Below are positions 9,086 to 47,407 of a DNA stretch of 47,407 nucleotides, in pieces; position 1 is the first letter of the stretch, and each line of letters starts with the position of its first letter. The stretch spans positions 1-47,407 of IMG/VR virus record IMGVR_UViG_3300007280_000520. One strand, given 5' to 3'. The notes beneath the pieces were generated by a model. It was not told the origin of the DNA. It searched no databases and saw only the letters and a program-made list of their open reading frames with translations. Position numbers and translations under genes: made by a program. This stretch comes from a virus.

Positions 9086-9095
9086 AGTGGGAACA

Positions 9096-11497: not shown

Positions 11498-11498
11498 T

Positions 11499-27697: not shown

Positions 27698-28085
27698 GAT
27701 CGAGTACTACTCTGATGAATTCAGTTGGCTCGATGATGATGACCGACTCACTTATTTAATAGACTTAGCAAAAAAGGCAACAACATTGCCACAAGAGCTA
27801 CGTACTGAAGAGCGTCTTGTTCCAGGATGTATGAGTAAGATTTGGATTGATGTTGGACTTCAAGAAAGTACTGTTCAAGTCTACTATGATAGTGATGCTA
27901 TGATTACAAAAGGTATAACCAGTGTTATATGTGATTGCTTTTCTGACATGGACGTCAATGAAGCAAAACAATTAAAAAAAGAAGACTTTGAAAGTCTCGG
28001 AATCAAGGAACTACTAACTTCTCAACGAAGGAACGGTTTAGCAAATTTGATTTCAATTATTATTGAAAAGGTAAATAATTTATGA
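27690..28085 (+). CDS. sufE: SufE-like sulfur acceptor
   Basis: 131 residues, near the usual ~140. SufE takes persulfide sulfur from the cysteine desulfurase SufS and passes it on to the Fe-S scaffold. The catalytic block 'RLVPGCMSKIWID' places the acceptor Cys at position 47, close to the family norm. 'DSDAMITKGITSVI' and 'LGIKELLTSQRRNGLANL' also match the family. No SufS or SufB is in the window, so it would work with host partners. It overlaps metK by 4 bases and lies downstream of queE. Confidence 0.9.
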   Translation: MNKIEYYSDEFSWLDDDDRLTYLIDLAKKATTLPQELRTEERLVPGCMSKIWIDVGLQESTVQVYYDSDAMITKGITSVICDCFSDMDVNEAKQLKKEDFESLGIKELLTSQRRNGLANLISIIIEKVNNL

Positions 28086-29161
28086 ATAACTATATTTTTA
28101 CAAGCGAAAGTGTTAGTGCTGGGCATCCAGATAAAGTAGCAGATCAAATCAGTGATGCACTGGTTGATGCTGGTTTAGCTAACGGAGACGAGACTACTCG
28201 TGTAGCAGTTGAAACACTTGTAACCACTAACCATGTAACGGTAGCGGGTGAAGTAAAAAACTTTAACGTAGATAACGTAGAAGAAATTATACGAAACAAG
28301 GTTAAAGAAATTGGATATGAGCAAGAAGGTTTTCATTGGGAAAATCTAAAAATTTATAATGAAATACATGCACAGAGTGGAGACATTGGTTTAGGTACTG
28401 ATAATTTTGGTGCAGGTGACCAGGGTATTATGTTTGGTTATGCATGTAATGACACACCTAGTATGATGCCAGCACCTATCCATTATAGTCATGAGATTCT
28501 AAAGAGCTTAGAGCAACGTAGATTAGAAAATTTGGACATTTTAGGACCAGATGCAAAAAGCCAAGTCAGTGTTAAATACGAAGACGGCAAACCAAAGTAT
28601 GCAACAAACGTGGTTTGTAGTACACAACACGCTGAAGGCAAGGGAAACGATGCCAAAGAGCTCGCAAGGTTAGTGATGCGTGATCAATTAGGAGAGCTAT
28701 ATGATGCAGAGCGCACTAAATTTTTTATTAATCCTACTGGCAATTTTGTTATTGGTGGGCCTGACGGTGATAGTGGTGTCACTGGACGTAAGATTATCGT
28801 TGATACTTATGGGGGCTATGCTCCCCATGGTGGCGGCGCTTTTTCTGGCAAAGATCCAACAAAGGTTGACAGATCAGCGGCATACATGGCGAGATGGCTC
28901 GCCAAGCAAGCAGTGGCCAAAGGGTATTGCGAGTGGGCGACAATCCAACTATCGTACGCCATTGGAGTAAAAGCACCTATGGCAGTATATATTGACTGTA
29001 ACGACGGTGGCAACAAAACAGCCATTCAAAACTGGATCAGTACTGTTGATTTAACCCCATTGGGTATCATCAGAAAGTTTGATCTATTTAACTTCCATGA
29101 GTATAGTGCAAATTGTACCTATGGACATTTTGGGAATAAAAACGTTCCTTGGGAGAAGTAA
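28082..29161 (+). CDS. metK: S-adenosylmethionine synthetase
   Basis: 359 residues; bacterial MetK is about 384-400. It makes SAM from methionine and ATP. Family blocks: 'FTSESVSAGHPDKVADQISD' at the N-terminus, 'GAGDQGIMFGYA' (ATP loop) at about 112, 'NPTGNFVIGGPDGDSGVTGR' at about 218, and 'GGGAFSGKDPTKVDRSAAYM' at about 250. The C-terminus is shortened but keeps 'FGNKNVPWEK'. Its start is coupled to sufE, so SAM and Fe-S sulfur supply are co-expressed. Confidence 0.96.
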   Translation: MNNYIFTSESVSAGHPDKVADQISDALVDAGLANGDETTRVAVETLVTTNHVTVAGEVKNFNVDNVEEIIRNKVKEIGYEQEGFHWENLKIYNEIHAQSGDIGLGTDNFGAGDQGIMFGYACNDTPSMMPAPIHYSHEILKSLEQRRLENLDILGPDAKSQVSVKYEDGKPKYATNVVCSTQHAEGKGNDAKELARLVMRDQLGELYDAERTKFFINPTGNFVIGGPDGDSGVTGRKIIVDTYGGYAPHGGGAFSGKDPTKVDRSAAYMARWLAKQAVAKGYCEWATIQLSYAIGVKAPMAVYIDCNDGGNKTAIQNWISTVDLTPLGIIRKFDLFNFHEYSANCTYGHFGNKNVPWEK

Positions 29162-31997: not shown

Positions 31998-32277
31998 AGT
32001 AATAGCCCTACTTTGTGATGACTCGTTGAAACCTACCGACATATTTCAAAATACTAATACCTTGAGGCTCAAAAGAAAAGGCGCTCGTGCTATGCAAAGA
32101 AAGTTCGAGAGTTGGGAACTAGAGCCTCCAGTTATGACGGCAGGCAATATGATTAATTTTATACGTAAGATGACTTTTCCATATTATATAGATAAGAAAC
32201 GACTCGTATTGTTTACTGAAGTTGATGCAATGTTTGCGAAGCTAGCAGGAGCGCAAGGCTGGTTAGATGGCAAATAG
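31957..32277 (+). CDS. small hypothetical protein
   Basis: 106 residues. It starts within the end of the preceding gene and overlaps the radical SAM gene by 11 bases. It is basic and helical, with 'LRLKRKGARAMQRKFESWEL' in the middle; 'TAGNMINFIRKMTFPYYID' follows. It could be a nucleic-acid binding protein. No family was recognised. Confidence 0.6.
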   Translation: MEKQSLEINQIQAKVIALLCDDSLKPTDIFQNTNTLRLKRKGARAMQRKFESWELEPPVMTAGNMINFIRKMTFPYYIDKKRLVLFTEVDAMFAKLAGAQGWLDGK

Positions 32278-33541
32278 ATTACAACGATTGAAATTACCAG
32301 AGAGCTTTTGCTTTGCACCATACACTAATATAGATCTAGATCAATCTGGAGGAGTATTGCCTTGCTATCGTAGCAAAGAGTTTCAAGGCAAATGGAAACA
32401 AGGCCATAATGCTACAGAAACAATTAACAATGACAATATGAGAAAACTTCGCCGCCAGTTATGGGAAGGCGAATGGCCTGATAGTTGTGTACAATGTAAA
32501 AAGCGAGAAGCCAAAGGTGTAAAGAGTACACGACAAGAATACAATGAACACTTTTTAACTAACATTGTTGATAAAGAGTATATTGAAACTCTGGTAGAAG
32601 ACATTAAACAAGAACCAGAAGTTAGTCATACCAGTAGAATACATACTATGGAAATTAGACCACATGGTGTTTGTAATCTAGCATGCGCTCATTGTAATCA
32701 GGAAAGTAGTACACGTTGGGTAGGTTTATTATCAGAGTACGAGGATGTAGAGCAAGTCAAAGATGCTTTTTATTTAGATACAAGTAGCTCAATACAGCAA
32801 CAATATATTTCCAATTACGTCAGCGGATCTACTGACTTGGAAGATTTCTTTAGTCAAGCAGACAGATTGAAACATCTACACTTTACTGGTGGTGAGCCCT
32901 TGCTTGATAAAAAGCATTTGGATTGGTTAGATATAATACCCAACAAGAGTAAGATAGATCTCAGATACCATACTAATTTACAGCATCGTCTGTATAACAA
33001 GTTTTTTGATAGATGGAATGAATTTAAAAGTTTGAGAGTATTTGCAAGTTTAGATACAAGCCCACATTTTTATCCTTATTTTCGCTATGGTAGTGATTGG
33101 AATCTAGTAGACGAAAATATTAAAGCAATTAAAGAAAATGTAGACAAGGTTACCATAAAAGCCACTATAACTGTCAACTTCCTTACTATGCTAGATTGGA
33201 ATGGAATACTAGATTATATTATTGAAAATGAATTAGAAATGCATGTGGCTTTTGTTGATCCACCGCACCCAATAAGTGCAGTATATTTGCCTAAAGAATT
33301 TAAAGACAAGGCACTAGTAGACCTTATACAGAGTAAGAAAAAACTAAAAGACTTGCCCAAGCGTCTGGCCAAGTTTAGCTCAGATGGTATAGATAAAATA
33401 GAAGAATTTCTAGTTAGCGAGTATGACAGTCAGGATATGCCAGACAAAACTGTTGAGTATTTTCATCATCTTGACAAGATATATAATTTAAAAATAAGTG
33501 ATTTTTCTTCAGATTTATTGCCTTTTTTGCTTGACAAGTAA
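32267..33541 (+). CDS. twitch-type radical SAM protein
   Basis: 424 residues. An N-terminal auxiliary 'twitch' region carries Cys residues (SFCFAPYTNID, VLPCYRSKEF, DSCVQCKKRE). The radical SAM motif CX3CX2C follows at about residue 136 (GVCNLACAHCN), and 'LHFTGGEPLLDKKHL' at about 206. The cores of 45901 and this protein have the same order, with the twitch part first. Such enzymes often modify peptides or sugars. The promoter for the next gene lies at its 3' end. Confidence 0.85.
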   Translation: MANRLQRLKLPESFCFAPYTNIDLDQSGGVLPCYRSKEFQGKWKQGHNATETINNDNMRKLRRQLWEGEWPDSCVQCKKREAKGVKSTRQEYNEHFLTNIVDKEYIETLVEDIKQEPEVSHTSRIHTMEIRPHGVCNLACAHCNQESSTRWVGLLSEYEDVEQVKDAFYLDTSSSIQQQYISNYVSGSTDLEDFFSQADRLKHLHFTGGEPLLDKKHLDWLDIIPNKSKIDLRYHTNLQHRLYNKFFDRWNEFKSLRVFASLDTSPHFYPYFRYGSDWNLVDENIKAIKENVDKVTIKATITVNFLTMLDWNGILDYIIENELEMHVAFVDPPHPISAVYLPKEFKDKALVDLIQSKKKLKDLPKRLAKFSSDGIDKIEEFLVSEYDSQDMPDKTVEYFHHLDKIYNLKISDFSSDLLPFLLDK

Positions 33542-35814: not shown

Positions 35815-36996
35815 ATGAAAACTGCTGAAGAACGTATCACACAATCACGTGTTAGACTACTTCTCAATAAACCTTTCTTTGGACAGCTGGCGACACGTTT
35901 GCGCTTAGAGGATGCAAGTGATTACATTCCAACAGCCGCAACCGATGGGCGCCGCTTCTTATTCAATCGTGCATTTGTTGATAGCTTGACTGATGCAGAG
36001 CTAGACTTCTTAGTAGGACATGAAGTTTTGCATTGCGTATTTGATCATATGGAGGCACGTGGTGACAGACTTCCACGTCTTTATAATGCCGCCGCAGATT
36101 TTAACATCAATATGACACTAATGAAACAATCAGTTGGTGATCCTATTGGTGAGGATAAACTTGGTGGCGGAAAAATGTGTTTGGATTGGAAATATGACGG
36201 CTGGAATAGTTATGAAATTTATGACGATCTTTACAAGAATGCAAAAGAATCTGAAGGTATGGATGTACACTTAGAAATTTCTGATGGCGAGGCTGGTGAC
36301 GAAGAAGGCAAAGGTTATTCAGTACAGATGTCAGAAGAAGAAAAGAAGGCTCTTGCTGACGAAATTAAACAAGCTACTATCCAAGCGGCACAGGCGGCAG
36401 GACAAGACGTTCCAGATTCAATTAAGCGTATGATTAATGAACTGGTTGCTCCTAAAATGGACTGGCGTGACGTACTACGCACTAATATGGAAAGCTCATT
36501 AAAGAGTGACTTTACATGGATGCGTCCTAGCAAGCGTTCAGGCGAAGTTATCTTTCCTGGTATGAACAAAGATGAAGTTCTTAAGGCATTTATTGCATTG
36601 GACTTGAGTGGTAGTATTAGTCATGAGTTGGCTAAAGAAATGCTCAGCGAAGTACAAGGTATCATGGAGCAGTATGCAGACTATGAAATTCATGTTTGTT
36701 GTTTTGATACCAAAATTTATAACTATGATGTTTTTACTAGTGAAGATGGTCGTAGTATTATGGAATACGAAACAATGGGCGGTGGTGGCACCGACTTTGA
36801 CGTTGTATTCAAGTTTCTTGAGGAGGAGGCTATTGAGCCAGACCAACTAGTAATGTTTACTGATGGCTATCCTTGGGGATCATGGGGTAATGCAGATTAC
36901 TGTGATACATTATTTGTTATTCATGGTGATCCTAAAGGACGTATCCAAGCACCATTTGGTGTTACAGTGCATTACGACCAAGCTAGCGTTCATTAA
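35815..36996 (+). CDS. VWA-domain protein with a HExxH-type metallopeptidase motif
   Basis: 393 residues. An N-terminal domain carries 'FLVGHEVLHCVFDHM' at about 65-79, an HExxH zinc-metallopeptidase motif followed by a second His. The C-terminal domain is a VWA fold with the MIDAS 'IALDLSGSISHEL' (DxSxS) at about 262 and 'MGGGGTDFD' at about 321. A glycine- and acid-rich linker separates the two. It is the partner expected for a MoxR ATPase. Such pairs occur in large phages with unclear roles; proteolysis of a host or virion protein is possible. Confidence 0.85.
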   Translation: MKTAEERITQSRVRLLLNKPFFGQLATRLRLEDASDYIPTAATDGRRFLFNRAFVDSLTDAELDFLVGHEVLHCVFDHMEARGDRLPRLYNAAADFNINMTLMKQSVGDPIGEDKLGGGKMCLDWKYDGWNSYEIYDDLYKNAKESEGMDVHLEISDGEAGDEEGKGYSVQMSEEEKKALADEIKQATIQAAQAAGQDVPDSIKRMINELVAPKMDWRDVLRTNMESSLKSDFTWMRPSKRSGEVIFPGMNKDEVLKAFIALDLSGSISHELAKEMLSEVQGIMEQYADYEIHVCCFDTKIYNYDVFTSEDGRSIMEYETMGGGGTDFDVVFKFLEEEAIEPDQLVMFTDGYPWGSWGNADYCDTLFVIHGDPKGRIQAPFGVTVHYDQASVH

Positions 36997-37008
36997 GAGA
37001 GGAAACGC

Positions 37009-37293
37009 ATGTCCAAAAAAATTAAGATGATAGATAATCAAGGAGCCTTGAGCGAAGATGATCTATCATTACTTAGAGGAACTCCAACTCTACTAGACAT
37101 GATGCGAAATCGTCGTCTATTAGTAGTTGCAAGTGGCTATGAACCAGATTGGGAAGCCATCACTGATAATATCAGAGGATTATATCACATAAGAAATTAT
37201 CATCAAAAACAAATTTTTCAGGTTTGGTTTGAACGTGACGAGGATGTTGTTACATTTGAGCAAAATCTTTTTATACAAAAATTATCGGTATAA
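37009..37293 (+). CDS. small hypothetical protein
   Basis: 94 residues after GAGAGGAAA. It begins with 'KKIKMIDNQGALSEDD', similar in style to the small protein at 10600, and has a beta/aromatic C-terminus (YHQKQIFQVWFERDEDVVTF). No family was recognised. A late-type motif overlaps its end. Confidence 0.6.
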   Translation: MSKKIKMIDNQGALSEDDLSLLRGTPTLLDMMRNRRLLVVASGYEPDWEAITDNIRGLYHIRNYHQKQIFQVWFERDEDVVTFEQNLFIQKLSV

Positions 37294-37296
37294 ATA
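37289..37296 (+). promoter_or_regulatory. T4-type late promoter motif
   Basis: TATAAATA, an exact match to the T4 late -10 consensus, 30 bases before the ATG at 37326. No convincing -35 element accompanies it. The small gene that follows resembles a conserved T4-like phage protein. Confidence 0.5.
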
Positions 37297-37325
37297 AACA
37301 TAGCAGTTAATTATAGGAGTTTACA

Positions 37326-37550
37326 ATGACTGAAGAAAATACAAATACAGGTCCATCACTAACAGTTGGTGACCTAACACTTACAGCAAACATCATTGAT
37401 CTTGCAGTACAGCGCGGTGCCTTTAAAGGTGCAGAGCTTACTACTGTTGGCAATGCGTTTGACAAAATTATTACTCTACTGAAGGCAATTGCGCCAGAAG
37501 CAGTAGAAGCACCCGAAGCCAAGGCTGAGGAAAACTCAGAGGAGGACTAA
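37326..37550 (+). CDS. conserved small phage protein
   Basis: 74 residues after an AGGAG site. 'LTLTANIIDLAVQRGAFKGA' followed by 'ELTTVGNAFDKIITLLKAI' is a pattern I recall from T4-like cyanophages, where the function is not known. The C-terminus is acidic and Ala-rich. It may be expressed late from the TATAAATA motif. Confidence 0.7.
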   Translation: MTEENTNTGPSLTVGDLTLTANIIDLAVQRGAFKGAELTTVGNAFDKIITLLKAIAPEAVEAPEAKAEENSEED

Positions 37551-37551
37551 A

Positions 37552-38172
37552 ATGTCTAGAAATATTAAACATGTTGGACAGCTAATCAATACGCAGAAGC
37601 GTTGTGTAGTTGTATTCCGTGAAGTACCTGATGAGCCAGAAAGTTGTCTAGTAGTAGATACTGATTCTCTGGCAGATTGGATGCATGATGATGTAATCAA
37701 TGCAGTAGAATCACCAGGCGCTCAATCAAGTGCAAACTTTTATGAGTATGCACAACGATCAGTATTTACTGACGGATCAAATATGTTGCAAACGCTACAC
37801 ACTCGTGGCATGCTACATAAAACAAAAACAGAAAACGTAATGATGCTACCTAACTCAGGAGTAAAAATTCGTTTAGATGAGCTGAACCAAATCATTAAAG
37901 AGCAAAATGGTGATGCAAACGCTATTCCAGATTCTGACGGACAAGTTCAGATGGCTGGTAAAGATATTGAACCTGCAACAATGCAGGCACCAGCATCTAA
38001 TGCAGATGGCGTTGACGACACTGATTATGCAAAAACTCTATTAGCGCAAGCTAAGACTTTTGAAGCAGAAGCCAAACGCCTAAAACAGGAAGCATACGAT
38101 CTGGTACCTTCAATGAAGCCAGGACGTAAAACACCGGCGTCAGAGTCAGAAGAAACGGCGGCTAATGCATAG
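37552..38172 (+). CDS. hypothetical protein
   Basis: 206 residues. The first half looks like a compact domain (KRCVVVFREVPDEPESCLVV). The second half contains a Gln- and Ala-rich linker (IPDSDGQVQMAGKDIEPATM), a helical 'TLLAQAKTFEAEAKRLKQEA' and a Lys/Pro tail. It could be a structural or scaffolding component, but no family was recognised. Preceded by GGAGG. Confidence 0.6.
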   Translation: MSRNIKHVGQLINTQKRCVVVFREVPDEPESCLVVDTDSLADWMHDDVINAVESPGAQSSANFYEYAQRSVFTDGSNMLQTLHTRGMLHKTKTENVMMLPNSGVKIRLDELNQIIKEQNGDANAIPDSDGQVQMAGKDIEPATMQAPASNADGVDDTDYAKTLLAQAKTFEAEAKRLKQEAYDLVPSMKPGRKTPASESEETAANA

Positions 38173-38174
38173 TG

Positions 38175-38474
38175 ATGCCAATTGAACGCAAAGATCGATC
38201 TTTTGACAGAATTTTTGACGAAATCAGTTTAGAAAGTATCCCGATGGGATACATTAAGAACATCAAGATTGTACTAGTAGATGGTACAGAAGTTGACTTA
38301 GAGTCAGACGAACTTGGTGAATTTGACAATACTGCATTTTTATTTCAGCACTTCAAAAGTGAAGATATTATTGACATTGGTATTCAGCTTGACTATGAAA
38401 AGATCAAGACTGATGTGACTAAAGATGTCAATGCAGTATTAAACACCTTATTTGATGATGACGACAAACAATAG
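38175..38474 (+). CDS. small hypothetical acidic protein
   Basis: 99 residues from the ATG at 38175; a GTG at 38172 is also possible. It has 'RIFDEISLESIPMGYIKNIK' and 'LVDGTEVDLESDELGEF', a beta-like acidic body. It overlaps the following methyltransferase gene. From memory, similar small proteins with 'IPxxYIxxI...L.DG' occur in T4-like phages; function unknown. Confidence 0.6.
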   Translation: MPIERKDRSFDRIFDEISLESIPMGYIKNIKIVLVDGTEVDLESDELGEFDNTAFLFQHFKSEDIIDIGIQLDYEKIKTDVTKDVNAVLNTLFDDDDKQ

Positions 38475-39081
38475 ACTAACGCAAGTAAAAAATCACTTTA
38501 GTAAAGCAAACTATAGTCGCGAGCGTTGGGCTACACACTCAAAGAGTAGTGACATTTTAATTCCGTTTCTACAGGAATTAGAAGCTAACCTTATAATTGA
38601 CGTAGGTTGCGGCACTAATCCATATAAAGAACATGTAAGTAATTTAATTGGATTAGATGCCGCAAACTACCCCCAAGCTGATATAAATTTAGCAGTTGAA
38701 GAAGTCCACTCATTAAATATATTCCAAAACCAATGCGCCGATGTTGTACTAGCCTTAGGCAGTATTAATTTCGGATCTAGAGAAGATGTTGTAAACCAAT
38801 TACGTATATGCGTAGACTGGTGTAAGCCTGGAGGCTATATCATATGTAGAGCTAGACTAAATGATCATACTGAACTAAACAGAAAAAAAGGTTTTGTACA
38901 GTTTGGTTGGAAAGTCGAGGATATATACGATATAACAGAACAGTTTGGTGACGTAGAATTTTATCGAGAACCAGAGATAGAGACTGCCGCAGGTGGAGCT
39001 CGTCCCAAAGGAGAAGATCACGGTAAACCAGATCACAACAGACTGATAAATCTAGCAGTTTGGTATTGGAAAAAAAAATGA
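38455..39081 (+). CDS. class I SAM-dependent methyltransferase
   Basis: 208 residues; the ATG at 38455 or 38458 is the likely start. Motif I 'LIIDVGCGTNPY' at about 43-54, a following 'NLIGLDAANYP', and 'DVVLALGSINFG' at about 92 match the class I fold; 'CKPGGYIICRARL' is the motif III region. It is similar in motif and order to the protein at 44466 (paralogue). The substrate is unknown; small molecule or peptide tailoring fits the neighbouring oxygenases. Confidence 0.8.
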   Translation: MMTTNNRLTQVKNHFSKANYSRERWATHSKSSDILIPFLQELEANLIIDVGCGTNPYKEHVSNLIGLDAANYPQADINLAVEEVHSLNIFQNQCADVVLALGSINFGSREDVVNQLRICVDWCKPGGYIICRARLNDHTELNRKKGFVQFGWKVEDIYDITEQFGDVEFYREPEIETAAGGARPKGEDHGKPDHNRLINLAVWYWKKK

Positions 39082-39368
39082 TTAAATGGTACAAGGAAGC
39101 AAAACATCATCTAAAGGTAGAAACAGGTTGGGGATATTGGTACCACTTGTGGCATAGTATGCAGAACACCTGGAAACTTTTAGTTGTTGCATTCAAGAGC
39201 CTTGTACATGGACTATTTCCTTGGGTATGGAAATCAGATAGTCCAAAGGCAGTTATAAAAATGTACCACACCATTATGCGAATTGAGCATATACGGAAGA
39301 TGGACGAATTAGCGGAAGTACCAAAAAATGAAAGATACAGACGTAAGTTTACTAACATTACTGAATAG
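39078..39368 (+). CDS. small hypothetical protein with a hydrophobic segment
   Basis: 96 residues, starting at the ATG overlapping the methyltransferase stop. It is aromatic and Trp-rich (YWYHLWHSMQNTWKLLVVAF) with one hydrophobic stretch that may be membrane-associated. The C-terminus is basic (YRRKFTNITE). It overlaps the next oxygenase gene by 41 bases. No family was recognised. Confidence 0.55.
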   Translation: MIKWYKEAKHHLKVETGWGYWYHLWHSMQNTWKLLVVAFKSLVHGLFPWVWKSDSPKAVIKMYHTIMRIEHIRKMDELAEVPKNERYRRKFTNITE

Positions 39369-39918
39369 TTACGGAGACGTCATAGAACTTGATTGGGACT
39401 TTGATGTTGATGAAGTTATAAAACAATTAAGTCAGTTGCCGTTTCAAGATAGTACAGGTAACAAAGCTGGAGTCAACCTAACTCACAGCGGAGATCAAGA
39501 AAATTTAAGTTTACGTGATGAAAATAAACATGACGTTGATCAACAATATACTGATTATCTCAATCAGTGTACTGAGCTTCTACCTTTCTTTGATAAGTGG
39601 GAAAAGCTAGCAAGGTGCCGAGCAGTTAAATTACAAGAAGGAAGTTTTTTCCGATTGCATCGTGATGCTTGGCGAATGAATCCACAAATGCGTATCTTTA
39701 TACCACTCAATAAAACTGATATAAGTGAGTGGGCGTTTATATATGATAAAGAACTGTATCAGTTTAAACCAGGCAAAGCATATATTTTGAATACACGCAA
39801 GCAACACGGAAGTTTTAGTTTTAGTAATGGTATCTACCATGTATTAATGAGTGTATATCTAACTGAAAATAATTTGCGCACAGTACAGACTATGCTACCA
39901 AATTGTAAGGATCATTAA
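39328..39918 (+). CDS. 2OG-Fe(II) oxygenase-like protein
   Basis: 196 residues. A cupin-like double-stranded beta-helix pattern is present: 'EGSFFRLHRDAWR' (HxD facial triad), 'PQMRIFIPLNK', and 'KPGKAYILNTRKQHGSFSF' with the distal His and a possible 2OG-binding Arg/Lys. It resembles aspartyl/asparaginyl-hydroxylase-type phage enzymes. It would use Fe(II), oxygen and 2-oxoglutarate to hydroxylate a substrate. It is the first of three oxygenase-like genes in this block. Confidence 0.7.
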   Translation: MKDTDVSLLTLLNSYGDVIELDWDFDVDEVIKQLSQLPFQDSTGNKAGVNLTHSGDQENLSLRDENKHDVDQQYTDYLNQCTELLPFFDKWEKLARCRAVKLQEGSFFRLHRDAWRMNPQMRIFIPLNKTDISEWAFIYDKELYQFKPGKAYILNTRKQHGSFSFSNGIYHVLMSVYLTENNLRTVQTMLPNCKDH

Positions 39919-40877
39919 TGAAAAAAAGTACAGGAAAAAATTGGTACAGTGGAGACAAAGTACAAGACTTAGTCGATAACATTGATGCAGACAAGGAAAA
40001 GATCCAAGGCGTTACAGAAAAAGATAGTAACTACATTGAAGAAATGTACAGTGACGATCAGTTAAAACGTCACAAAGAAATGGATAATATTTTTACTGTT
40101 GACAATGTTCCTAGTCGTTGGGAACACAATAAACTTCGTAGTACTTGGCATTTTGATCCTATGGTAGATCCAGATAGTGAAACTACGTTTGTTGTTCCAG
40201 TACACTTGCAAGGTGATTTCCAGCCTGCTATTGACTTTGCATTGCGTGAAGCAAAAGAGATGACCATGGGTAACTATCGTAGTCGTAATGCTAGTAAACA
40301 AGATGCGGACTTGCATGATGGTGAACTAATGGATATGAAACGTGCTACTGGATTAGATGACTACAGTAGTATGTATTATGACAAAGTGGTACGTACCAAA
40401 TTTGATGCAGATGGAAACAAGCAAAGAAAAGAAAACAAAGTACCCGAGTATGAAATATTCCACGAAGCCATAAAGCAAATGGATATTGATGTACACCAAA
40501 GTCGTATCCATGTGCAGAAGATGGGACAGTGTACTCCAATACACATTGATCAGCAAATGAGATATGCTCGTCCTGGTTGGCGTAAAATATGGACAGATGC
40601 TGGTGCTGATAAACAGCCTCTAAAATTACGTAGATTTCTAATTATGTTACAGCCTTGGACACAAGGACATGTATGGCAGTTTGGAAACAAATATTTTCAG
40701 GGATACACTGGCGGAGAAGCAGTAACATATGATTGGTGTAACATGCCACATGGCACAGCCAACTTTGCATATGAACCTAGATTTACATTCCAGATTACAG
40801 GATTTGTAGGTGAAAAGATGCAGGGTTGGATTGACGATGCATACAACGGTGCTGATCCAAAGATTATTAAATTATGA
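39918..40877 (+). CDS. 2OG-Fe(II) oxygenase-like protein
   Basis: 319 residues, starting at the ATG overlapping the previous stop. The core is 'CTPIHIDQQMR' (HxD), 'LRRFLIMLQPWTQGHVWQFG', 'GEAVTYDWCNMPHGTANF' (distal His) and 'RFTFQITG' (2OG-binding Arg). An earlier 'TWHFDPMVDP' and the same core order recur in the protein at 45146, its paralogue. The N-terminal ~150 residues are a separate charged region. Confidence 0.75.
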   Translation: MKKSTGKNWYSGDKVQDLVDNIDADKEKIQGVTEKDSNYIEEMYSDDQLKRHKEMDNIFTVDNVPSRWEHNKLRSTWHFDPMVDPDSETTFVVPVHLQGDFQPAIDFALREAKEMTMGNYRSRNASKQDADLHDGELMDMKRATGLDDYSSMYYDKVVRTKFDADGNKQRKENKVPEYEIFHEAIKQMDIDVHQSRIHVQKMGQCTPIHIDQQMRYARPGWRKIWTDAGADKQPLKLRRFLIMLQPWTQGHVWQFGNKYFQGYTGGEAVTYDWCNMPHGTANFAYEPRFTFQITGFVGEKMQGWIDDAYNGADPKIIKL

Positions 40878-41671
40878 ATAAAGACGAGTTACAAGAATAT
40901 ATTCGATCAAACTTTGACAAAACACTCAAGGAAGAACGAGTACCAAATACAGTTGTCCAATATTATGGAAAGGATCAACCAGGATTATTTAATTTTGGAA
41001 AACCTGGTAATGATACTTTTAGCAGTCATTTATCACAGGACTATGACTGGACACAACACGAAATAACATACAAGTGGAATAGTTTAGGGCTACGTGGCCC
41101 TGAGCCAAACTTCGACGCAGACACTAAGCTATTGGTAGCAGGGGGAAGTGTATGCGTTGGCACAGGCATGCCATTAGAGCTAACGTTTCCACATATGCTC
41201 GCTGAACGCATGGGGGCTGACTACGTAAATCTAAGCGATTACGATAGCTTTTCAGATGTTATTACAGAGTTGTTGGACTTTGGACAACAGTACCAGCCCA
41301 CCCACATTGTATTAATGGATCCCAGATTTATTGGCATGAGTGGGTGGGCATTGAATTATTTTCTTATGCCAAAAAAATCTCCGGATTTAGAAAGAATAGA
41401 TAGACATTTTTATCAAAGTGTTCTACAATGGGATAATAATTTGTTTTTGAAAATGATGGATTCATACTTAACTGATCTATTTCCAAGAACAGAAATTATA
41501 CATTATTATGCTCTAGGACGAAAGCAATTTCAAAACACACCTGAGTACAAATATATAAAACCAGTGCTAATGGACAAGAGTCATATTATTGATTTAGCAC
41601 GTGACGGTAGCCATCCAGGACTACGTAGTCATCAATTAATAACAGATCTTTTATACAATGAACTTCGATAA
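40874..41671 (+). CDS. SGNH/GDSL-like hydrolase
   Basis: 265 residues. Block I 'LLVAGGSVCVGTGMPL' carries the nucleophile Ser of the SGNH family, and 'ARDGSHPGLRSHQL' near the C-terminus carries the Asp and His of the triad. 'GADYVNLSDYDSFSD' fits block II. These enzymes remove or transfer acyl groups on sugars, lipids or peptides. It overlaps the preceding oxygenase stop and the next gene by 14 bases. Confidence 0.75.
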   Translation: MNKDELQEYIRSNFDKTLKEERVPNTVVQYYGKDQPGLFNFGKPGNDTFSSHLSQDYDWTQHEITYKWNSLGLRGPEPNFDADTKLLVAGGSVCVGTGMPLELTFPHMLAERMGADYVNLSDYDSFSDVITELLDFGQQYQPTHIVLMDPRFIGMSGWALNYFLMPKKSPDLERIDRHFYQSVLQWDNNLFLKMMDSYLTDLFPRTEIIHYYALGRKQFQNTPEYKYIKPVLMDKSHIIDLARDGSHPGLRSHQLITDLLYNELR

Positions 41672-42320
41672 AAAATATATTTTCCTAGTTGGAGTACCCG
41701 GCAGTCGTTGGGGCAGACTAGAAGCAATGATTTATAAATCTGCACCTGGGTATATTGATGTTAGTTGTAAAGCACCATACCTACAGGACATGCCTAATCA
41801 TGGAACACAGCATATCTATACATTTTGGGGACCTTTCCATCAACACGGCGAGGGATTTGATAGATTAGATTTACTTGGACCAGAAAGAGTTATGGGAGAA
41901 ATTGAGAGTGCATATAATCCCAATGATCCAGGCAAGGTTAGAATTATCCGCTGTCACTGGTTTAGTTATCAGTTAGACTGGATTGCAGAAAACATGCCTT
42001 GGGTTGATATTTTATTTGTATTGCGTGAACCAGAAATGTGTTTCCGTTGGTGGAAAGAGAGTGGCGGATGGGATATTAGCTACCCTTGTTACAAATGGTA
42101 CAGCAATGACGAAGTATTAAAACGTCAAATACTTCAAGAAACCAGACTTATGCATAAATTTATTAACGAGCGTGGACTAAAAATTACAGACAACCTACAA
42201 AAGCCACGTGAGTGGATTAAGAATAATATGCCGGAAGTGTTAGAACATATAAATACCGATATAACTGTAAACACCTTAGACCAAACATTATGGCCAGTGA
42301 TTTACAGAGGAACACAATGA
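41658..42320 (+). CDS. P-loop sulfotransferase-like protein
   Basis: 220 residues. 'FLVGVPGSRWGRLEAM' at about 9-24 is the PAPS-type P-loop, and 'ILFVLREPEMCFRWW' at about 117-131 is the 3'-phosphate region. Paired with 43802, which shares 'GVPGSKW' and 'VYREPQ' at matching positions. Lys residues that usually contact the sulfate are not obvious. It may instead be a nucleotide-binding regulator. It is coupled to the amidotransferase gene that follows. Confidence 0.6.
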   Translation: MNFDKKYIFLVGVPGSRWGRLEAMIYKSAPGYIDVSCKAPYLQDMPNHGTQHIYTFWGPFHQHGEGFDRLDLLGPERVMGEIESAYNPNDPGKVRIIRCHWFSYQLDWIAENMPWVDILFVLREPEMCFRWWKESGGWDISYPCYKWYSNDEVLKRQILQETRLMHKFINERGLKITDNLQKPREWIKNNMPEVLEHINTDITVNTLDQTLWPVIYRGTQ

Positions 42321-42868
42321 AAGTATTAATTAGTACAAGATCACTTCCGAGCCCAGGTGGCTTTATGTTTGATGCTTACGAACGTGGCTTCAACAGTATG
42401 TTTAAGGATCACGACATAACGGCACTAATTAATAAAAAACATCAAAATTTTGAAGAATTTGCCGACACACACGACCTATTGGTCCTGAGTGGCGGTGATG
42501 ACTACCCCCTAAGATTGATGACAGAAATAGAAATGATTAAACAATTTCGCCAACGCAAAAAGCCAATATTGGGTATTTGCCATGGCGCATTTCTGTTAAC
42601 TCAATTATGGGGTGGTCAACTAATATCCGTTGAGGGTCATAGGCGTACAGAACACAACGTTTTGTATAAATACGAACAGCGCACAGTGAATAGTTACCAT
42701 GGTAGCTCTATAACTGTGGCTCCCACCGATGCAAAGGTCCTAGTGACCGACGACAACGGGTATATTGAGTCGTGGCAGTACGAAAATGTCATGGCTGTCG
42801 TCTGGCATCCGGAAAGAGATCTCGAACATCATTGGCTACCAGACGAATATTATGATATCATAAATTGA
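42317..42868 (+). CDS. class I glutamine amidotransferase-like (C26) protein
   Basis: 183 residues. The catalytic Cys88 sits in 'ILGICHGAFLLTQLWGG', and 'VVWHPERDLEHH' near residue 165 supplies the His and Glu. 'LLVLSGGDDYPLRLMTE' is the oxyanion region. This matches the GATase1 and gamma-glutamyl hydrolase families (PuuD-like), which hydrolyse glutamine or gamma-glutamyl amides. Its codon use is more G+C-rich than the neighbours at many third positions, a possible sign of transfer. It could supply ammonia to an amidation step in this block. Confidence 0.75.
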   Translation: MKVLISTRSLPSPGGFMFDAYERGFNSMFKDHDITALINKKHQNFEEFADTHDLLVLSGGDDYPLRLMTEIEMIKQFRQRKKPILGICHGAFLLTQLWGGQLISVEGHRRTEHNVLYKYEQRTVNSYHGSSITVAPTDAKVLVTDDNGYIESWQYENVMAVVWHPERDLEHHWLPDEYYDIIN

Positions 42869-42884
42869 AAAAGGAGTCAGAACA

Positions 42885-43742
42885 ATGACACAAATGACAG
42901 GTAAAGAGTTCGTAGCACACGTTGCAGAACTAATCGAACCACTATTTAAAGCTTCAGAAATCCAGACACAGGCTTACTTCCGTAACAACCCTGATCTAGA
43001 TGAAGCAATTTTCCACTTCAAGCGCAGAATGTTTAACGAGCGCATGAATATTGTTGAAATTTCAAAGACACTAGCGTCAATGCCAGCTTCAACAGACCCA
43101 GTACAGCTAAAACTATTAGCGAAGCAAGTACTAGACGAAGCAAAGCACTATGACATGGTGAAAAACGCAATCGAATATCTATCAGGTGAAGAGTTTTCAG
43201 ACGATGAGCTAGAAGCAGAATTTGCATGGCAGATGGACGAATCAAACGTTAAAGCAAAAGGTGCATCACTATTTGAAGAAATTGGTGGACACGAAGACGA
43301 AATGATGGCGGCTGTATATCAGTTTGTTGCAGAAGGCCGTGCAGGTCGTGTATGGAATGCAATGGCAACATCAATTGCAGATCCAATCGTTTCACGCACA
43401 TATGCAAAAATTGCAAAAGACGAAACATTCCACTCAACAATCGGCGCACGTACACTAGAGCGTCTAGCAGTGACAGAAGAAGCACAAGCAAGAGTGCTAG
43501 CAGTACTACCAAAAATGACAGAGCGTATGTACTGGATTAACTGCATGGGTACAGAAGCGACACGTGAAGCGGCTGAACTAGTTTCAACAGCATACGGTCA
43601 TGACGTATCAGATGAGAAAATGGCAGAGATGGGCAAATCATGGTTTGCACCAAAAGGCGAATTAAAAGACTGGACGCCAACACCTCGCGGTCAGTTTGAC
43701 ACAAAAGAATCAAGCGAACTAGTTGACAATTTCAGCTCGTAA
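42885..43742 (+). CDS. ferritin-like diiron protein
   Basis: 285 residues. Two EXXH metal motifs on long helices are visible, 'VLDEAKHYDMVKN' and 'IAKDETFHSTIG', consistent with a four-helix-bundle diiron centre as in ribonucleotide reductase R2, PaaA or N-oxygenases. The wording 'ferritin-like' describes the fold only. It has a strong AAGGAG site. Codons differ from the neighbours (many GCA, CTA, TCA and TTC codons), which suggests high expression or transfer. A promoter and a hairpin lie at its 3' end. Confidence 0.75.
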   Translation: MTQMTGKEFVAHVAELIEPLFKASEIQTQAYFRNNPDLDEAIFHFKRRMFNERMNIVEISKTLASMPASTDPVQLKLLAKQVLDEAKHYDMVKNAIEYLSGEEFSDDELEAEFAWQMDESNVKAKGASLFEEIGGHEDEMMAAVYQFVAEGRAGRVWNAMATSIADPIVSRTYAKIAKDETFHSTIGARTLERLAVTEEAQARVLAVLPKMTERMYWINCMGTEATREAAELVSTAYGHDVSDEKMAEMGKSWFAPKGELKDWTPTPRGQFDTKESSELVDNFSS

Positions 43743-43751
43743 GTTTATAAT
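43723..43751 (+). promoter_or_regulatory. sigma70-type promoter, perfect consensus, overlapping the end of the diiron gene
   Basis: TTGACA at 43723-43728, a 17-bp spacer and TATAAT at 43746-43751. The hairpin at 43757 begins just where transcription would start. The next gene begins at 43802. Confidence 0.7.
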
Positions 43752-43756
43752 ATATA

Positions 43757-43786
43757 GGAGAACGGCATAGTCGTTCTCCTTTTTTA
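43757..43786 (+). terminator. intrinsic terminator downstream of the diiron gene
   Basis: Stem GGAGAACG (43757-43764), a 7-base loop and stem CGTTCTCC (43772-43779), followed by a T run to about 43785. It would end the diiron gene transcript; for transcripts from the promoter at 43723 it would form a 5' hairpin instead. Confidence 0.8.
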
Positions 43787-43801
43787 TTCTAAGAGGTAAT
43801 A

Positions 43802-44473
43802 ATGACAAATTATAATAAACGCATTTGGTTTTGTGGAGTACCTGGATCAAAGTGGAGCGGTATTGATATTCAATTACGTAACGTTTTGCCTTGCGACAGA
43901 TCAGATGAGACCCCTGAACGAGTATTTTATCATAGAGTGAATACTCCAGGAGATAAAAACAACGGGCATAGAGGTTCATATTGGGGACCTGGTATGGGTT
44001 GTGGCGAGGATTGGACAGACTTCAATCACGTAACAAAAGAGAAGTTGGAGAATGATATTAACGAAGTCTTTACAGGCGAAGGTTATAAAATTATCAAGAG
44101 CCACTTCTTTGCAAGACAATTTAATTTAGATTTTATCTGGAATCATTTTCCAGGTGATTATATTATGTTCGTATATCGAGAGCCACAGGCAAGTTTTGCT
44201 TGGTGGTGCAACGTAATGGATTTTAGTCCAGAGCATTGGCCTAATTATTCGCCAGGGTATACAGACTATAACTACATGCGAACAAAAATATTTGAAGAAA
44301 GCAGTAAGATTACTGACTTTGCTATGCGAAAGCATATGGATTGGAAGATGTGGGATCCAAAAACATCAATTCAAAACTTTCCAGGTTTTAATCAGGAAGC
44401 AGCAGACGACATTTCACGTTGGGCAGGCGATGCTTGGGTAAGTTTTAAAGAGATACCGCATCAGAATGGATAG
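43802..44473 (+). CDS. P-loop sulfotransferase-like protein
   Basis: 223 residues. 'IWFCGVPGSKWSGIDIQL' at about 8-25 is the P-loop, and 'YIMFVYREPQASFAWW' at about 119-134 the second block, both matching the protein at 41658 in order. 'GYKIIKSHFFARQFN' fits the family helix. Its products may be related to those of its paralogue. It is expressed from the perfect promoter that follows the diiron gene. It overlaps the methyltransferase start. Confidence 0.6.
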   Translation: MTNYNKRIWFCGVPGSKWSGIDIQLRNVLPCDRSDETPERVFYHRVNTPGDKNNGHRGSYWGPGMGCGEDWTDFNHVTKEKLENDINEVFTGEGYKIIKSHFFARQFNLDFIWNHFPGDYIMFVYREPQASFAWWCNVMDFSPEHWPNYSPGYTDYNYMRTKIFEESSKITDFAMRKHMDWKMWDPKTSIQNFPGFNQEAADDISRWAGDAWVSFKEIPHQNG

Positions 44474-44519
44474 AAGTGAAATAAAGAGTACAATGGATAG
44501 AAGTGAAGTTAAGCATCTA
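44466..44519 (+). repeat. 27-base tandem repeat at the methyltransferase start
   Basis: Two 27-base units begin with the same 15 bases (ATGGATAGAAGTGAA) at 44466 and 44493. Each carries a start codon, giving two alternative starts 27 bases apart. Confidence 0.7.
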
Positions 44520-45149
44520 ATCAAAAATGCTTACCATAGTACGGATAATTTTTACACCTTTGCAGATCAAATTAATAGATACAAACCTGAACTTGTTATT
44601 GACGCTGGGTGTGGAACCAACCTATGGAAAGCTAAAGTAAAAAATCTAGTAGGATTTGATAAAAAACCCCACCCAGACTTAGACTACAATTGTAATTACA
44701 AAGAATTTGATTTGCAAGTTCAGCCAGGTACAGCTGATTTTGTTTTTTGCCTAGGTAGCATGCATGCCCAAGCAGACGTCAGCCATGAGTTGGATTTAGT
44801 ATATAAGTGGCTAAAGCCTGGAGGCAGAGTTATTATGAGAGTGCGTAAGGACTTGGATGATAAATCTATTGGGGCATGGACACTAGACAAAATACACAGT
44901 AATACAAATAAATATAACTATACTATAGAAAAGCCAATAGAAGAAAAAGCTATAATATTAAATACATTGGATGACGAAACATTCAAATGGCTAAAAGCAA
45001 AAGTAGACGATGAGTGGGAATTCCAAGTTGTTGGAAAAGAAACGCATCGTAGAGAAGCAATACAAAGGGAAACCGAACGCCGTGTCACAAATTTTGATGA
45101 AGATATTATTTTTAAATCTTGGTATGTTTGGTGGTGGAGAAAACAATGA
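44466..45149 (+). CDS. class I SAM-dependent methyltransferase
   Basis: 227 residues. Motif I 'LVIDAGCGTNLWKAK', then 'NLVGFDKK', 'DFVFCLGSMHAQADV' and 'LKPGGRVIMRVR' match the class I fold and the paralogue at 38455. The N-terminus is a 27-base tandem duplication (MDRSEIK, then MDRSEVK), so a second ATG at 44493 is also possible. It overlaps both flanking genes and lies directly before a 2OG oxygenase gene, as its paralogue does. Confidence 0.8.
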   Translation: MDRSEIKSTMDRSEVKHLIKNAYHSTDNFYTFADQINRYKPELVIDAGCGTNLWKAKVKNLVGFDKKPHPDLDYNCNYKEFDLQVQPGTADFVFCLGSMHAQADVSHELDLVYKWLKPGGRVIMRVRKDLDDKSIGAWTLDKIHSNTNKYNYTIEKPIEEKAIILNTLDDETFKWLKAKVDDEWEFQVVGKETHRREAIQRETERRVTNFDEDIIFKSWYVWWWRKQ

Positions 45150-45856
45150 AGTCACCTTTTAAGTCACCTTGGCATTTTGATAATTTTCGTCAGGACAAAG
45201 AGGGCGAATACGTAAAAATTATTGGAAAATTTCAGGGTGATTGGTTAGACGATATTAAAGCGGCACGTGATAAAGGCGTTACAGCGCAAGGATATAATCA
45301 ACAAGATTACGGACATGCCGCAAATGCAAAAAGTGAAGGACACGTGGATGAAGATAAAGATAATCCATACGGTAATCCAAGTGCTAAGATGTTTGCAAAG
45401 TTAAATTTTGACAGGCATCCTGGTACATGTCCAACATTTGAAAAAATAGTTAGTATGTTGCATTTCAATACTGACAAAAAACTAACACAAAAATTTAATG
45501 ATCAATTTCCTAATCATCAGCTTATGTGGCATATTGATAATTTGCCAGGACTGCCTGATGCTAAAAGAGTGATTGATAATCCAGACTTTAAATACCAAGA
45601 ACCAGATAAACTAAGATTTCTTATTATGTTGGAAGATTGGGAGCCAGGTCAACTTGTGCAATTTGGTACTCGCATTTATACACAATGGAGAGCAGGCACA
45701 GCATTCACGTGGGAATGGAGTACACTACCACATGCAACGTGGAATGGTAGTTGGCGTAAACGTCCAGCCTTACAATTAACTGGATCAGCATCAGAGAAGA
45801 CTTGGGATATAGTACACTCTGGAACAGCAGACACAATTTACAACGTAGATAAATAA
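45146..45856 (+). CDS. 2OG-Fe(II) oxygenase-like protein
   Basis: 236 residues, starting at the ATG overlapping the methyltransferase stop. 'SPWHFDNFRQD' near the start and the core 'LMWHIDNLPG' (HxD), 'LRFLIMLEDWEPGQLVQFG', 'GTAFTWEWSTLPHATW' (distal His) and 'RPALQLTG' parallel the protein at 39918, its paralogue. It would hydroxylate a substrate with Fe(II), oxygen and 2-oxoglutarate. The radical SAM gene that follows may act on the same substrate. Confidence 0.75.
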   Translation: MKSPFKSPWHFDNFRQDKEGEYVKIIGKFQGDWLDDIKAARDKGVTAQGYNQQDYGHAANAKSEGHVDEDKDNPYGNPSAKMFAKLNFDRHPGTCPTFEKIVSMLHFNTDKKLTQKFNDQFPNHQLMWHIDNLPGLPDAKRVIDNPDFKYQEPDKLRFLIMLEDWEPGQLVQFGTRIYTQWRAGTAFTWEWSTLPHATWNGSWRKRPALQLTGSASEKTWDIVHSGTADTIYNVDK

Positions 45857-45857
45857 C
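45848..45857 (+). promoter_or_regulatory. possible T4-type late promoter motif
   Basis: GATAAATAAC, overlapping the end of the oxygenase gene, matches NATAAATA and equals the decamer on the minus strand at 3815-3824. It lies about 45 bases before the radical SAM gene at 45901. Weak evidence. Confidence 0.4.
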
Positions 45858-45900
45858 AATGAGTATGGTGCAGACGAACTTGCACAAAAGGATCAATTAA

Positions 45901-47328
45901 ATGTCAGAGAACAAATTTCCATCGGATACATTCTGTATCCTGCCGTGGATTCATTTGTCAACCAGACCAGATGGTAGTATGCGAGTATGTTGTACAGCAA
46001 ACGCATCTAGTGTTGGAGCAACAAATGACAAAGTACACGGAGGACGAGTTGGTGTTGTAAAAACAGATGACGGACGTCCAGCAAACCTTAATATTAGTGA
46101 CTTAGATAGCGCATGGAACAATACATATTATCGTAGTGTTCGAAAAATGATGTTGGCTGGACAAAAGCCGCCAAGTTGTTTAAAATGCTATAAAGAAGAA
46201 GCAGCAGGCCACCGCAGTAAGCGACAGTGGGAAACAGAATACTGGATGAACAACGGTATTGATGTACAACAGTTGTTAGATGAAACTTTTGAGGATGGAT
46301 CGACAAAATCCAAACTAAGGTATATCGATATACGTATGGGTACAAAATGTCAGCTAGGCTGTATTATGTGTAGCCCACATGATAGTTCAGGTTGGGTAAA
46401 AGACTGGCAACAGCTAAATCCTAAAATTGAAAATGAAAGCCTTAAGCAAACAATGGTATGGGCTAACAAAGGTAAAGAGTACGGTGCAAGTTATAACTGG
46501 CACAAAGACAATCCTGTGTTCTGGGAACAGTTTTACGCACAGATTCCACATATGCGTCAGCTATATTTTGCAGGCGGTGAATCAACAGTTATTGATGAGC
46601 ATTATGAAATCTTAGATAAAGTTATTGAAATGGGTTATGCAGGTGACATGGAAGTTCGTTATAATTCAAACGGAATTGAACTACCTGACAGATTGCTAGA
46701 ACAATGGAAGCATTTTAAGAAAGTGCGTTTCCATTATAGTATTGACAGCATTGGCGAGATGAATGATTATATTCGTTACCCAAGTGAATGGGATCACCAA
46801 CTTGCGATGTTCAAGCGTTTGGATACTGAAACAACTAACAATGTAGAAATTACAATTGCATGTGCCGTTAACGCTCTTAACATTCACTATATTCCAGATT
46901 TCCTTAAATGGAAACTAACAGAAAGTGGATTACACAAAACAAATATGTGGCCATTTGGTGCAGGCGGTATTAACTATCACTTTGTATACTGGCCAGGACA
47001 CTTGAACGTTAAAGTATTACCAGATGAATTCTTAGACAAGACTGAAAAGAAGTACGAAGAATTTATTGAATGGTGGAGTGATAATTGGGAACTAGGTGTT
47101 CCTACATGGCACAAAGGCAAAGTAACAAAACAACAATGGCTAGATGCAAGTTATGGTATTAAGCGTTTACGTGGTATGCTTAGTTTTGCTCGTAGTGAAG
47201 ACTGGAGCAGACGTTTACCTGAGTTCCGTGAATATATTAACAAGCTAGATGGAATGCGTGGAACAGATTTCCGTAAGACATTCCCAGACATGGCTTATTT
47301 GTTAGACGAACCAAAGGATGAAGAATGA
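45901..47328 (+). CDS. twitch-type radical SAM protein
   Basis: 475 residues. The N-terminal twitch-like region has paired cysteines (TFCILPWIHLS, MRVCCTANAS, PSCLKCYKEE). The radical SAM core motif CX3CX2C follows at about residue 152 (GTKCQLGCIMCS), then 'LYFAGGESTVIDEHYEILDK', the family's substrate-binding strand, and 'WPFGAGGINYHF' at about residue 355. It is similar in layout to the protein at 32267 but longer. The start codon follows AAAGGATCAATTAA. It overlaps the next gene by 4 bases (ATGA). Confidence 0.88.
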   Translation: MSENKFPSDTFCILPWIHLSTRPDGSMRVCCTANASSVGATNDKVHGGRVGVVKTDDGRPANLNISDLDSAWNNTYYRSVRKMMLAGQKPPSCLKCYKEEAAGHRSKRQWETEYWMNNGIDVQQLLDETFEDGSTKSKLRYIDIRMGTKCQLGCIMCSPHDSSGWVKDWQQLNPKIENESLKQTMVWANKGKEYGASYNWHKDNPVFWEQFYAQIPHMRQLYFAGGESTVIDEHYEILDKVIEMGYAGDMEVRYNSNGIELPDRLLEQWKHFKKVRFHYSIDSIGEMNDYIRYPSEWDHQLAMFKRLDTETTNNVEITIACAVNALNIHYIPDFLKWKLTESGLHKTNMWPFGAGGINYHFVYWPGHLNVKVLPDEFLDKTEKKYEEFIEWWSDNWELGVPTWHKGKVTKQQWLDASYGIKRLRGMLSFARSEDWSRRLPEFREYINKLDGMRGTDFRKTFPDMAYLLDEPKDEE

Positions 47329-47407
47329 TATATGTATTAGTAGCATTAAAAGGCGAACTGCCAGAAAACAAACTTAACCCTGAAAAATTTAAAGTATGGT
47401 ATACAGG
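47325..47407 (+). CDS. MTA/SAH nucleosidase-like protein, 3'-truncated by window edge
   Basis: Starts at the ATG overlapping the radical SAM stop and runs off the window. The visible 27 residues (MIYVLVALKGELPENK, then FKVWYTG) match the opening strand and first loop of the nucleoside phosphorylase family, as in 5'-methylthioadenosine/S-adenosylhomocysteine nucleosidase. Such enzymes cleave SAM by-products, including 5'-deoxyadenosine from radical SAM reactions. The short visible part leaves the call tentative. Confidence 0.5.
   Translation, partial: MIYVLVALKGELPENKLNPEKFKVWYT

Follow-up and report, generated by a model that had tools for sequence, protein, structure and literature searches.

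By sequence comparison, the tailoring-enzyme block of the virus record IMGVR_UViG_3300007280_000520 is a composite of three separately conserved modules (A, B, and C) and not one duplicated set. It spans positions 38455–47328 of the window (the whole 47,407-nucleotide stretch that was analyzed) and comprises twelve genes, all on the + strand, that overlap by 1–41 bases or are separated by gaps of at most 59 bases. All genes named by the original prediction are found in place in this tightly packed array; the small DUF6356 gene (39078–39368) had been overlooked. The description as a tailoring block holds, whereas the claim that no such phage pathway is known was too strong, given the cyanophage cluster in PMC7824862 and the Mosig block. 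Tentatively, and with somewhat less than even confidence, the island is read as a pathway that decorates a surface component of the phage by hydroxylation, sulfation, and methylation; the target would probably be the tail fibers or a peptide or glycan attached to these.

Module architecture and origin of the paralogs

Module A takes the order DUF6356, AspH-like 2OG oxygenase (OGa), second 2OG oxygenase (OGb), SGNH hydrolase, and sulfotransferase (ST1). Module B consists of a class-I glutaminase-like protein (GAT) and a diiron oxygenase (DI), and module C of a sulfotransferase (ST2), optionally the methyltransferase MT2, OGc, and a twitch radical SAM enzyme (RS). Sequence analysis establishes which enzyme families are present, that their catalytic residues are intact, that the order within modules is conserved, and that selection is purifying (pN at least 5 times below pS in every gene, relative to the closest relative).

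Pairwise comparison confirms the predicted paralogy of two methyltransferases (MT1/MT2, 37% identity, E = 1e-17), two 2OG oxygenases (OGb/OGc, 41% over 69 aa, E = 1e-13), and two P-loop proteins (ST1/ST2, 26% over 177 aa, E = 1e-12) far above chance. No further pair within the 9-kb block has significant similarity, and none is detectable pairwise between OGa and OGb/OGc. A repeated order had been taken to suggest a duplicated ancestral set. The actual orders are MT-OG-ST and ST-MT-OG, however, which is no repeat, and ST1 and ST2, like OGb and OGc, fall into different well-supported clades. The ST and OGb/OGc trees require separate origins (branches 100/97 and 99/99), and each clade also holds other phages with that module alone, its own neighbors travelling along. 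Because the paralogs sit in separate, strongly supported clades with their own neighbors, and because module C is present without A or B, a local tandem duplication of one set is rejected for the STs and OGb/OGc. ST adjoins OGb/OGc in 63/90 unique cases, compared to 14% for other genes, and the tree distances of the two families are correlated (r = 0.72). A small precursor peptide had been suggested as a further check; no such ORF of 22–90 aa is present in the intergenic space of 36900–47407. Only 79 bases of the window follow RS, and a precursor gene could still lie farther downstream.

Enzymes of the three modules

On the module A side, the SAM-dependent methyltransferase MT1 (38455–39081) matches Methyltransf_11 just under the cut-off (E = 7e-4). 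The DUF6356 protein matches Pfam PF19883 above the cut-off (9e-8), and 38 of the 43 members of its family are encoded next to OGa. OGa (39328–39918), predicted as a third 2OG oxygenase, is assigned by its ligands and family profiles to the AspH/proline-hydroxylase-like 2OG-Fe(II) oxygenases. Its iron ligands H111xD113 and H160 are invariant in 21 sequences, six of which match Asp_Arg_Hydrox (down to 3e-17; the window protein itself has no match), and the family profile reaches beta-hydroxylase (1e-16) and L-proline cis-4-hydroxylase (8e-12) in the PDB. The 2OG-Fe(II)-oxygenase-like proteins OGb (39918–40877, 92% identical to L003) and OGc (45146–45856) retain the ligands of their family, in which H209xD211 and H278 are invariant and R288 is present in at least 90% of 29 sequences. 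Two distant OGb-family members match Asp_Arg_Hydrox, down to 1e-15. In the SGNH/GDSL hydrolase-like protein (40874–41671) the GxS, N, and DxxH blocks (G90xS92, N119, D244xxH247) are all invariant among 17 sequences, and DUF6473/GDSL matches are weak. In relatives, a tryptophan-halogenase-family gene occurs within module A.

ST1 (41658–42320) and its paralog ST2 (43802–44473), which precedes OGc-RS in relatives, are the predicted P-loop proteins and have a sulfotransferase fold. The AlphaFold model of ST1 (pLDDT 88) has tyrosylprotein sulfotransferases as its top VIA matches (Z 11.4, rmsd 3.3, 174 aligned). Ranks 1–10 are all sulfotransferases (Z 11.4–9.1), with kinases at 8.7 and lower. Sulfotransfer_3 is matched by 5 of 26 ST family members (best 5e-4) and not by ST1 itself. 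Judged by model and sequence, both proteins are putative PAPS-dependent sulfotransferases; among the genes of the window, none for PAPS synthesis was recognized. With Foldseek alone, neither the ST1 nor the DI model had a match at E <0.001, and PDB profile searches with the st0 and gt2 families gave no match. Two contigs carry an ST with two in-frame TGA codons; recoding of TGA was rejected, as the overall coding density bears no sign of it.

GAT (42290–42868) was correctly called a class I amidotransferase: it matches Pfam GATase at 1e-14, and its Cys-His-Glu triad (C97/H173/E175) is invariant. Its best NCBIfam match is gamma-glutamyl-CDP-amidate hydrolase (NF045546, 9e-15), but at 55 bits the score is far under the curated cut-off of 250, and a methyl-phosphoramidate pathway was therefore rejected. 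DI (42885–43742) is a ferritin-like/TenA-like diiron oxygenase whose full ligand set (E52, E85xxH88, E150, E180xxH183) is invariant in 37 relatives, in line with its prediction as a diiron protein. The model (pLDDT 91) is a helical bundle carrying Glu, ExxH, Glu, and ExxH. Diiron oxygenases and TenA are tied as structure matches (Z about 15), the subfamilies PaaA, MiaE, ADO, and CADD are all tied at Z 13–15, and the PDB profile match is just 0.97. GAT lies within three genes of DI for 13 of 16 DI (80% non-redundant), compared to 0 of 125 control genes. The synonymous divergence of both genes is much lower than that of their neighbors, and they were therefore probably exchanged independently.

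In module C, MT2 (44466–45149) is a SAM-dependent methyltransferase that matches Methyltransf_23 above the cut-off (1.8e-7). RS (45901–47328), predicted as a twitch radical SAM enzyme, is an N-terminal-twitch radical SAM/SPASM enzyme; it matches NF033640 (1e-123) with 413 bits against a curated cut-off of 170, and its identity is 64–90% across most of 80 viral loci. Relatives of module C often have an SAH/MTA-nucleosidase-like gene after RS; of 21 relatives with a PNP_UDP_1 nucleosidase in the locus, 20 have it one to two genes away from RS. Rows of radical SAM genes are seen downstream of RS. Outside the block, the + strand of the window encodes a second twitch/SPASM radical SAM paralog (32267–33541, 5e-25 to RS) and an S-adenosylmethionine synthetase (MetK, 28082–29161, three S-AdoMet_synt Pfam domains, 7e-52 to 9e-34), which possibly provides the SAM supply.

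Distribution and relation to known systems

The modules recur in dozens of uncultured large phages from marine and freshwater habitats and are nearly absent among 50,697 public phage records. A T4-type gp23 capsid gene is present on 9 of 17 host contigs. Gene-order conservation in relatives had been set beforehand as a refutation test, and the order is kept: the full module A order (DUF6356-OGa-OGb-SGNH-ST) in 20 of 41 loci and OGb-SGNH-ST in 34. After OGb loci are collapsed at 95% identity (n = 19), SGNH is next in 17, ST in 16, and DUF6356 in 13. Two glycosyltransferase-like genes precede module A in 17 loci. Module A loci are accompanied by tail-fiber-like clusters in 18 cases and by tail-sheath-stabilizer/virion genes in 28, and in many T4-like contigs tail-fiber genes lie on one side of module A and tail-sheath/neck genes on the other. 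Tail-fiber genes are at most 10 genes away in only 6 of the 19 non-redundant OGb loci, and the tail link may therefore reflect one phage lineage. Module B was also observed in other genomes with no tie to tail genes.

No report on this gene set was found in the literature. Iyer et al. 2021 (PMC7824862) described a cyanophage cluster of 8–12 genes with 2OG-Fe oxygenases, methylases, a halogenase, and a cupin, whose product is not known and for which decoration or a secondary metabolite was proposed. Phage-borne 2OG oxygenases and methylases are common to both systems, a likeness of enzyme types and not of shown gene homology. Unlike in the present block, sulfotransferase, SGNH, and radical SAM genes are not mentioned in that paper, and its core carbamoyltransferases are absent here. 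In the cultured T4-like Pelagibacter phage Mosig EXVC030M (MT647606), two AspH-like oxygenases and SGNH, radical SAM, and methyltransferase relatives adjoin tail fiber and peptidase S74 genes; sulfotransferase, diiron, and GATase relatives were not found in that block, and OGa is just 25% identical. Fe-S/radical-SAM-rich T4-like uncultured ocean viruses with up to 12 radical SAM genes (PMC5332604) were described for Fe-S assembly, with no sulfation or 2OG module reported. Among bacteria, Massilia atriviolacea and Janthinobacterium sp. UMAB-56 group a homologous diiron enzyme with sulfotransferase-like and methyltransferase genes (gene set DI-ST-st0-cupin-MT). These clusters lack GAT, OGa, and OGb/OGc and have sulfatase, 2H phosphoesterase, and NMT1-like transporter genes; DI adjoins transporter and sulfatase genes in two bacterial chromosomes. 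Genome searches for further bacterial clusters gave 2/245 in the Janthinobacterium family and 2/144 in the Bdellovibrionales class, with no additional cases.

Possible roles of the block

Under the decoration reading, the island would have been put together from three modules, each inherited on its own among uncultured large phages of aquatic habitats; those with a visible capsid gene are T4-like. The 2OG and diiron oxygenases would introduce hydroxyl groups or activate such oxygen functions, and the PAPS-dependent sulfotransferases would then sulfate these. The methyltransferases and the radical SAM enzyme may add or rearrange groups, the SGNH protein may take off or move an ester group, and GAT may cleave or use a gamma-glutamyl or glutamine amide. 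As to substrate and product of the block, we infer a phage surface component as target, most likely the tail fibers or a peptide or glycan attached to these, because many related contigs place module A between tail-fiber and tail-sheath/neck genes and the equivalent Mosig block adjoins tail fibers. Changed adsorption, escape from recognition, or receptor mimicry would be the benefit. The first rank of tyrosylprotein sulfotransferase in the ST fold comparison points toward decoration; the position of the block away from tail genes in the window's own clade, and of module B elsewhere, points against it, as do the two bacterial chromosomes with DI adjacent to transporter and sulfatase genes and the negative result for PAPS synthesis. 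A narrower and unlikely version is a mobile, phage-evolved pathway of post-translational modification, by which uncultured T4-like phages would hydroxylate and sulfate the side chains of their tail-fiber proteins, possibly with halogenation in some relatives. We know of no phage virion with such chemistry, and sulfated or hydroxylated virion parts are not known as phage modifications.

Alternatively, though this is considered somewhat unlikely, the enzymes could alter LPS or capsule glycans on the surface of the infected cell, for example, to keep out rival phages. The authors of PMC7824862 proposed such a role for cyanophage clusters in which 2OG oxygenases occur with methylases. Glycans are frequent sulfotransferase substrates, and the window has a UDP-glucose dehydrogenase, a predicted nucleotidyltransferase-cupin protein, and putative glycosyltransferase-like ORFs; yet no O-antigen flippase, polymerase, or initiating transferase is recognized in it, the nearest ST fold match is a protein sulfotransferase, and tail genes accompany module A in other phages. 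The tail link also argues against nucleic-acid hypermodification (DNA or tRNA), which appears highly improbable. In its favor, phage DNA hypermodification clusters can unite P-loop kinases, oxygenases, and methyltransferases; MiaE, a tRNA hydroxylase, is among the tied close structural matches of DI, and candidate QueE-, FolE-, and TGT-like ORFs are present in the window. OGa, however, is AspH/proline-hydroxylase-like and not TET/JBP-like, and the P-loop proteins are sulfotransferase-like.

With no precursor ORF in the intergenic space and no NRPS/PKS or exporter in the block, it is doubtful that a diffusible small molecule or RiPP-like peptide (toxin, signal, siderophore, nutrient) is made during infection. 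Such a product would fit the halogenase-family gene inside relatives' module A, the frequent use of peptides by SPASM/twitch enzymes, the NMT1-like transporter gene and sulfatase that adjoin the Massilia/Janthinobacterium DI-cupin-st0-ST-MT cluster, and the CysD/CysN-like and Sulfotransfer_3 genes next to DI in Bdellovibrionales, but copies in bacteria are very scarce and come without GAT or OGb/OGc. The block could also be a hypervariable auxiliary-gene island, in which enzymes unrelated to each other, each with its own substrate, have gathered at one site. The modules are indeed separable and apart in other phages (A and B lie about 100 kb apart on one 204-kb contig), GAT and DI were probably exchanged independently, and radical SAM genes stand in rows after RS. 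Strict order within modules, correlated ST and OGb/OGc trees, and overlapping genes make this quite unlikely.

Similar cyanophage clusters have already been described, so the block is a variation on a known theme. The pathway is conserved across large aquatic phages yet almost missing from public phage records. The relative in cultured Mosig makes the tail-fiber question accessible to virion proteomics. If true, a pathway of sulfation and oxidation in large phages from marine and freshwater habitats would mean that a layer of phage–host surface chemistry has been overlooked.

Block anatomy and enzyme families

In the 47,407-base window, which is an uncultured virus record, the block consists of twelve genes on the plus strand (38455-47328), in which neighboring genes overlap or are separated by gaps of at most 59 bases. 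Their order is a SAM-dependent methyltransferase (MT1), the small protein DUF6356, two 2OG-Fe(II) oxygenases (OGa, OGb), an SGNH/GDSL hydrolase-like protein (SGNH), a sulfotransferase-like protein (ST1), a class-I glutaminase-like protein (GAT), a diiron oxygenase-like protein (DI), ST2, MT2, the oxygenase OGc, and a radical SAM/SPASM enzyme (RS). The original prediction overlooked the DUF6356 gene; the paralogy it claimed for the MT, OGb/OGc, and ST pairs is real, and no other homology is found within the block.

OGb and OGc retain the HxD...H + Arg pattern, and OGa groups with AspH/proline-type hydroxylases. The catalytic blocks are retained in SGNH, the Cys-His-Glu triad is invariant in GAT, and RS belongs to the N-terminal-twitch radical SAM family. 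The structure model of ST1 has a sulfotransferase fold with tyrosylprotein sulfotransferases as top-ranked matches, and some ST relatives also match the Sulfotransfer_3 profile. DI combines an invariant ligand set (E, ExxH, E, ExxH) with a confident, helical structure model. Since the solved diiron enzymes MiaE, aldehyde-deformylating oxygenase, CADD, and HrmI tie with the TenA family (Z ~14-15), DI can be assigned clearly to the superfamily, but not to one subfamily. Tandem pairs of diverged DI genes in four relatives (L053, L075, L099, L123) possibly encode a heteromeric diiron enzyme.

Modules and their assembly

IMG/VR loci were gathered by matches to block genes (41 with OGb, 80 with DI, 80 with RS), and all locus counts are thus shares among such loci, not frequencies across phages. 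Family mapping across the relatives yields three separate units. Of the 41 OGb loci, 20 have a complete module A (DUF6356-OGa-OGb-SGNH-ST) and 34 have its OGb-SGNH-ST stretch. In module B, GAT is linked to DI in 80/85 DI loci and adjacent in 55/85; after 80% redundancy removal, linkage is found in 13/16, versus 0/125 control genes. In window relatives without A and B, what stays constant is module C, ST2-(MT2)-OGc-RS. Several contigs bearing these modules carry a T4-type gp23 gene.

ST adjoins OGb/OGc far more than background, a habit that is the same in loci collected without OGb as bait (25/44 and 17/22). Distances in the ST tree are also correlated with those in the OGb/OGc tree (r = 0.72). 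The repeated families had been taken for a duplicated ancestral set. In both the ST and the OGb/OGc tree, however, the two window copies belong to separate clades with strong support, and each copy groups with relatives that have its own neighbors. This rejects local duplication for these families; the set was assembled. Compared with the closest relative, pN is well below pS in every block gene, a sign of constraint, and the lower pS of GAT (0.38) and DI (0.27) than of the other block genes (0.59-0.83) fits a separate exchange of module B.

Occurrence and possible SAM supply

A tblastn search of 50,697 public phage records gave no match for OGb, DI, DUF6356, or SGNH, and remote matches only for ST and OGa. 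Among 84,980 bacterial and archaeal species, DI occurs in seven contigs, of which four look chromosomal. It is found as DI-cupin-st0 together with ST, MT, and a sulfatase in Massilia and Janthinobacterium, and adjoins sulfotransferases and genes reading as CysD/CysN-like in Bdellovibrionales; such neighbors are consistent with the cassette acting in sulfation. Two in-frame TGA codons interrupt a sulfotransferase relative in contigs G404 (2505-3143) and G406 (208667-209305); this gene is probably decayed, and neither contig shows a sign of recoding.

Of the 21 relatives with a PNP_UDP_1 nucleosidase in the locus, 20 have it one to two genes away from RS, and the window encodes a SAM synthetase outside the block (28082-29161). 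The two may form a viral SAM-recycling pair, and their presence suggests a phage contribution to sustaining a high demand for SAM. A short PNP_UDP_1 nucleosidase directly follows the twitch radical SAM gene in loci L005 and L128; in the closest relative, L127, an alternative oxidase (Pfam AOX 4e-80, 11419-12027) takes this position. TTT-transporter-like genes (TctA/TctC-like by reading) lie near cassettes in phage contigs L034, L035, L115, and L123.

Elsewhere in the window, TGT-like (DSGGFQ motif, 9018-10598), FolE-like (16115-16816), and QueE-like (26540-27433) ORFs may point to 7-deazaguanine chemistry. The TGT-like ORF had no match when searched against PDB sequences. Adjacent ORFs at 12797-15051 read as phosphoenolpyruvate carboxykinase-like and class-I aldolase-like. 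A subtilase (19025-21700, Peptidase_S8 1.5e-40) has a signal-like N terminus and reads as autotransporter-like, with a putative C-terminal beta-barrel.

Tail genes and the proposed target

Many T4-like contigs carry tail-fibre-like genes, two glycosyltransferase-like genes, module A, and then tail-sheath-stabiliser and virion genes, a neighborhood that is absent from the window's own clade. In the cultured pelagiphage Mosig, tail fibre and peptidase S74 genes have as immediate neighbors two AspH-type genes along with relatives of the SGNH, methyltransferase, and radical SAM genes. Three relatives (L005, L004, L048) harbor a tryptophan-halogenase-family flavoprotein gene inside module A, sited between OGa and OGb or between OGb and SGNH; its WxWxIP motif is intact in L048 only.

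This class of system is already precedented in cyanophage clusters (PMC7824862), in the account of which sulfotransferase, SGNH, and radical SAM genes are not mentioned. We infer that the target is a surface component, most likely on the tail fibres, that would first be hydroxylated and then sulfated and methylated.
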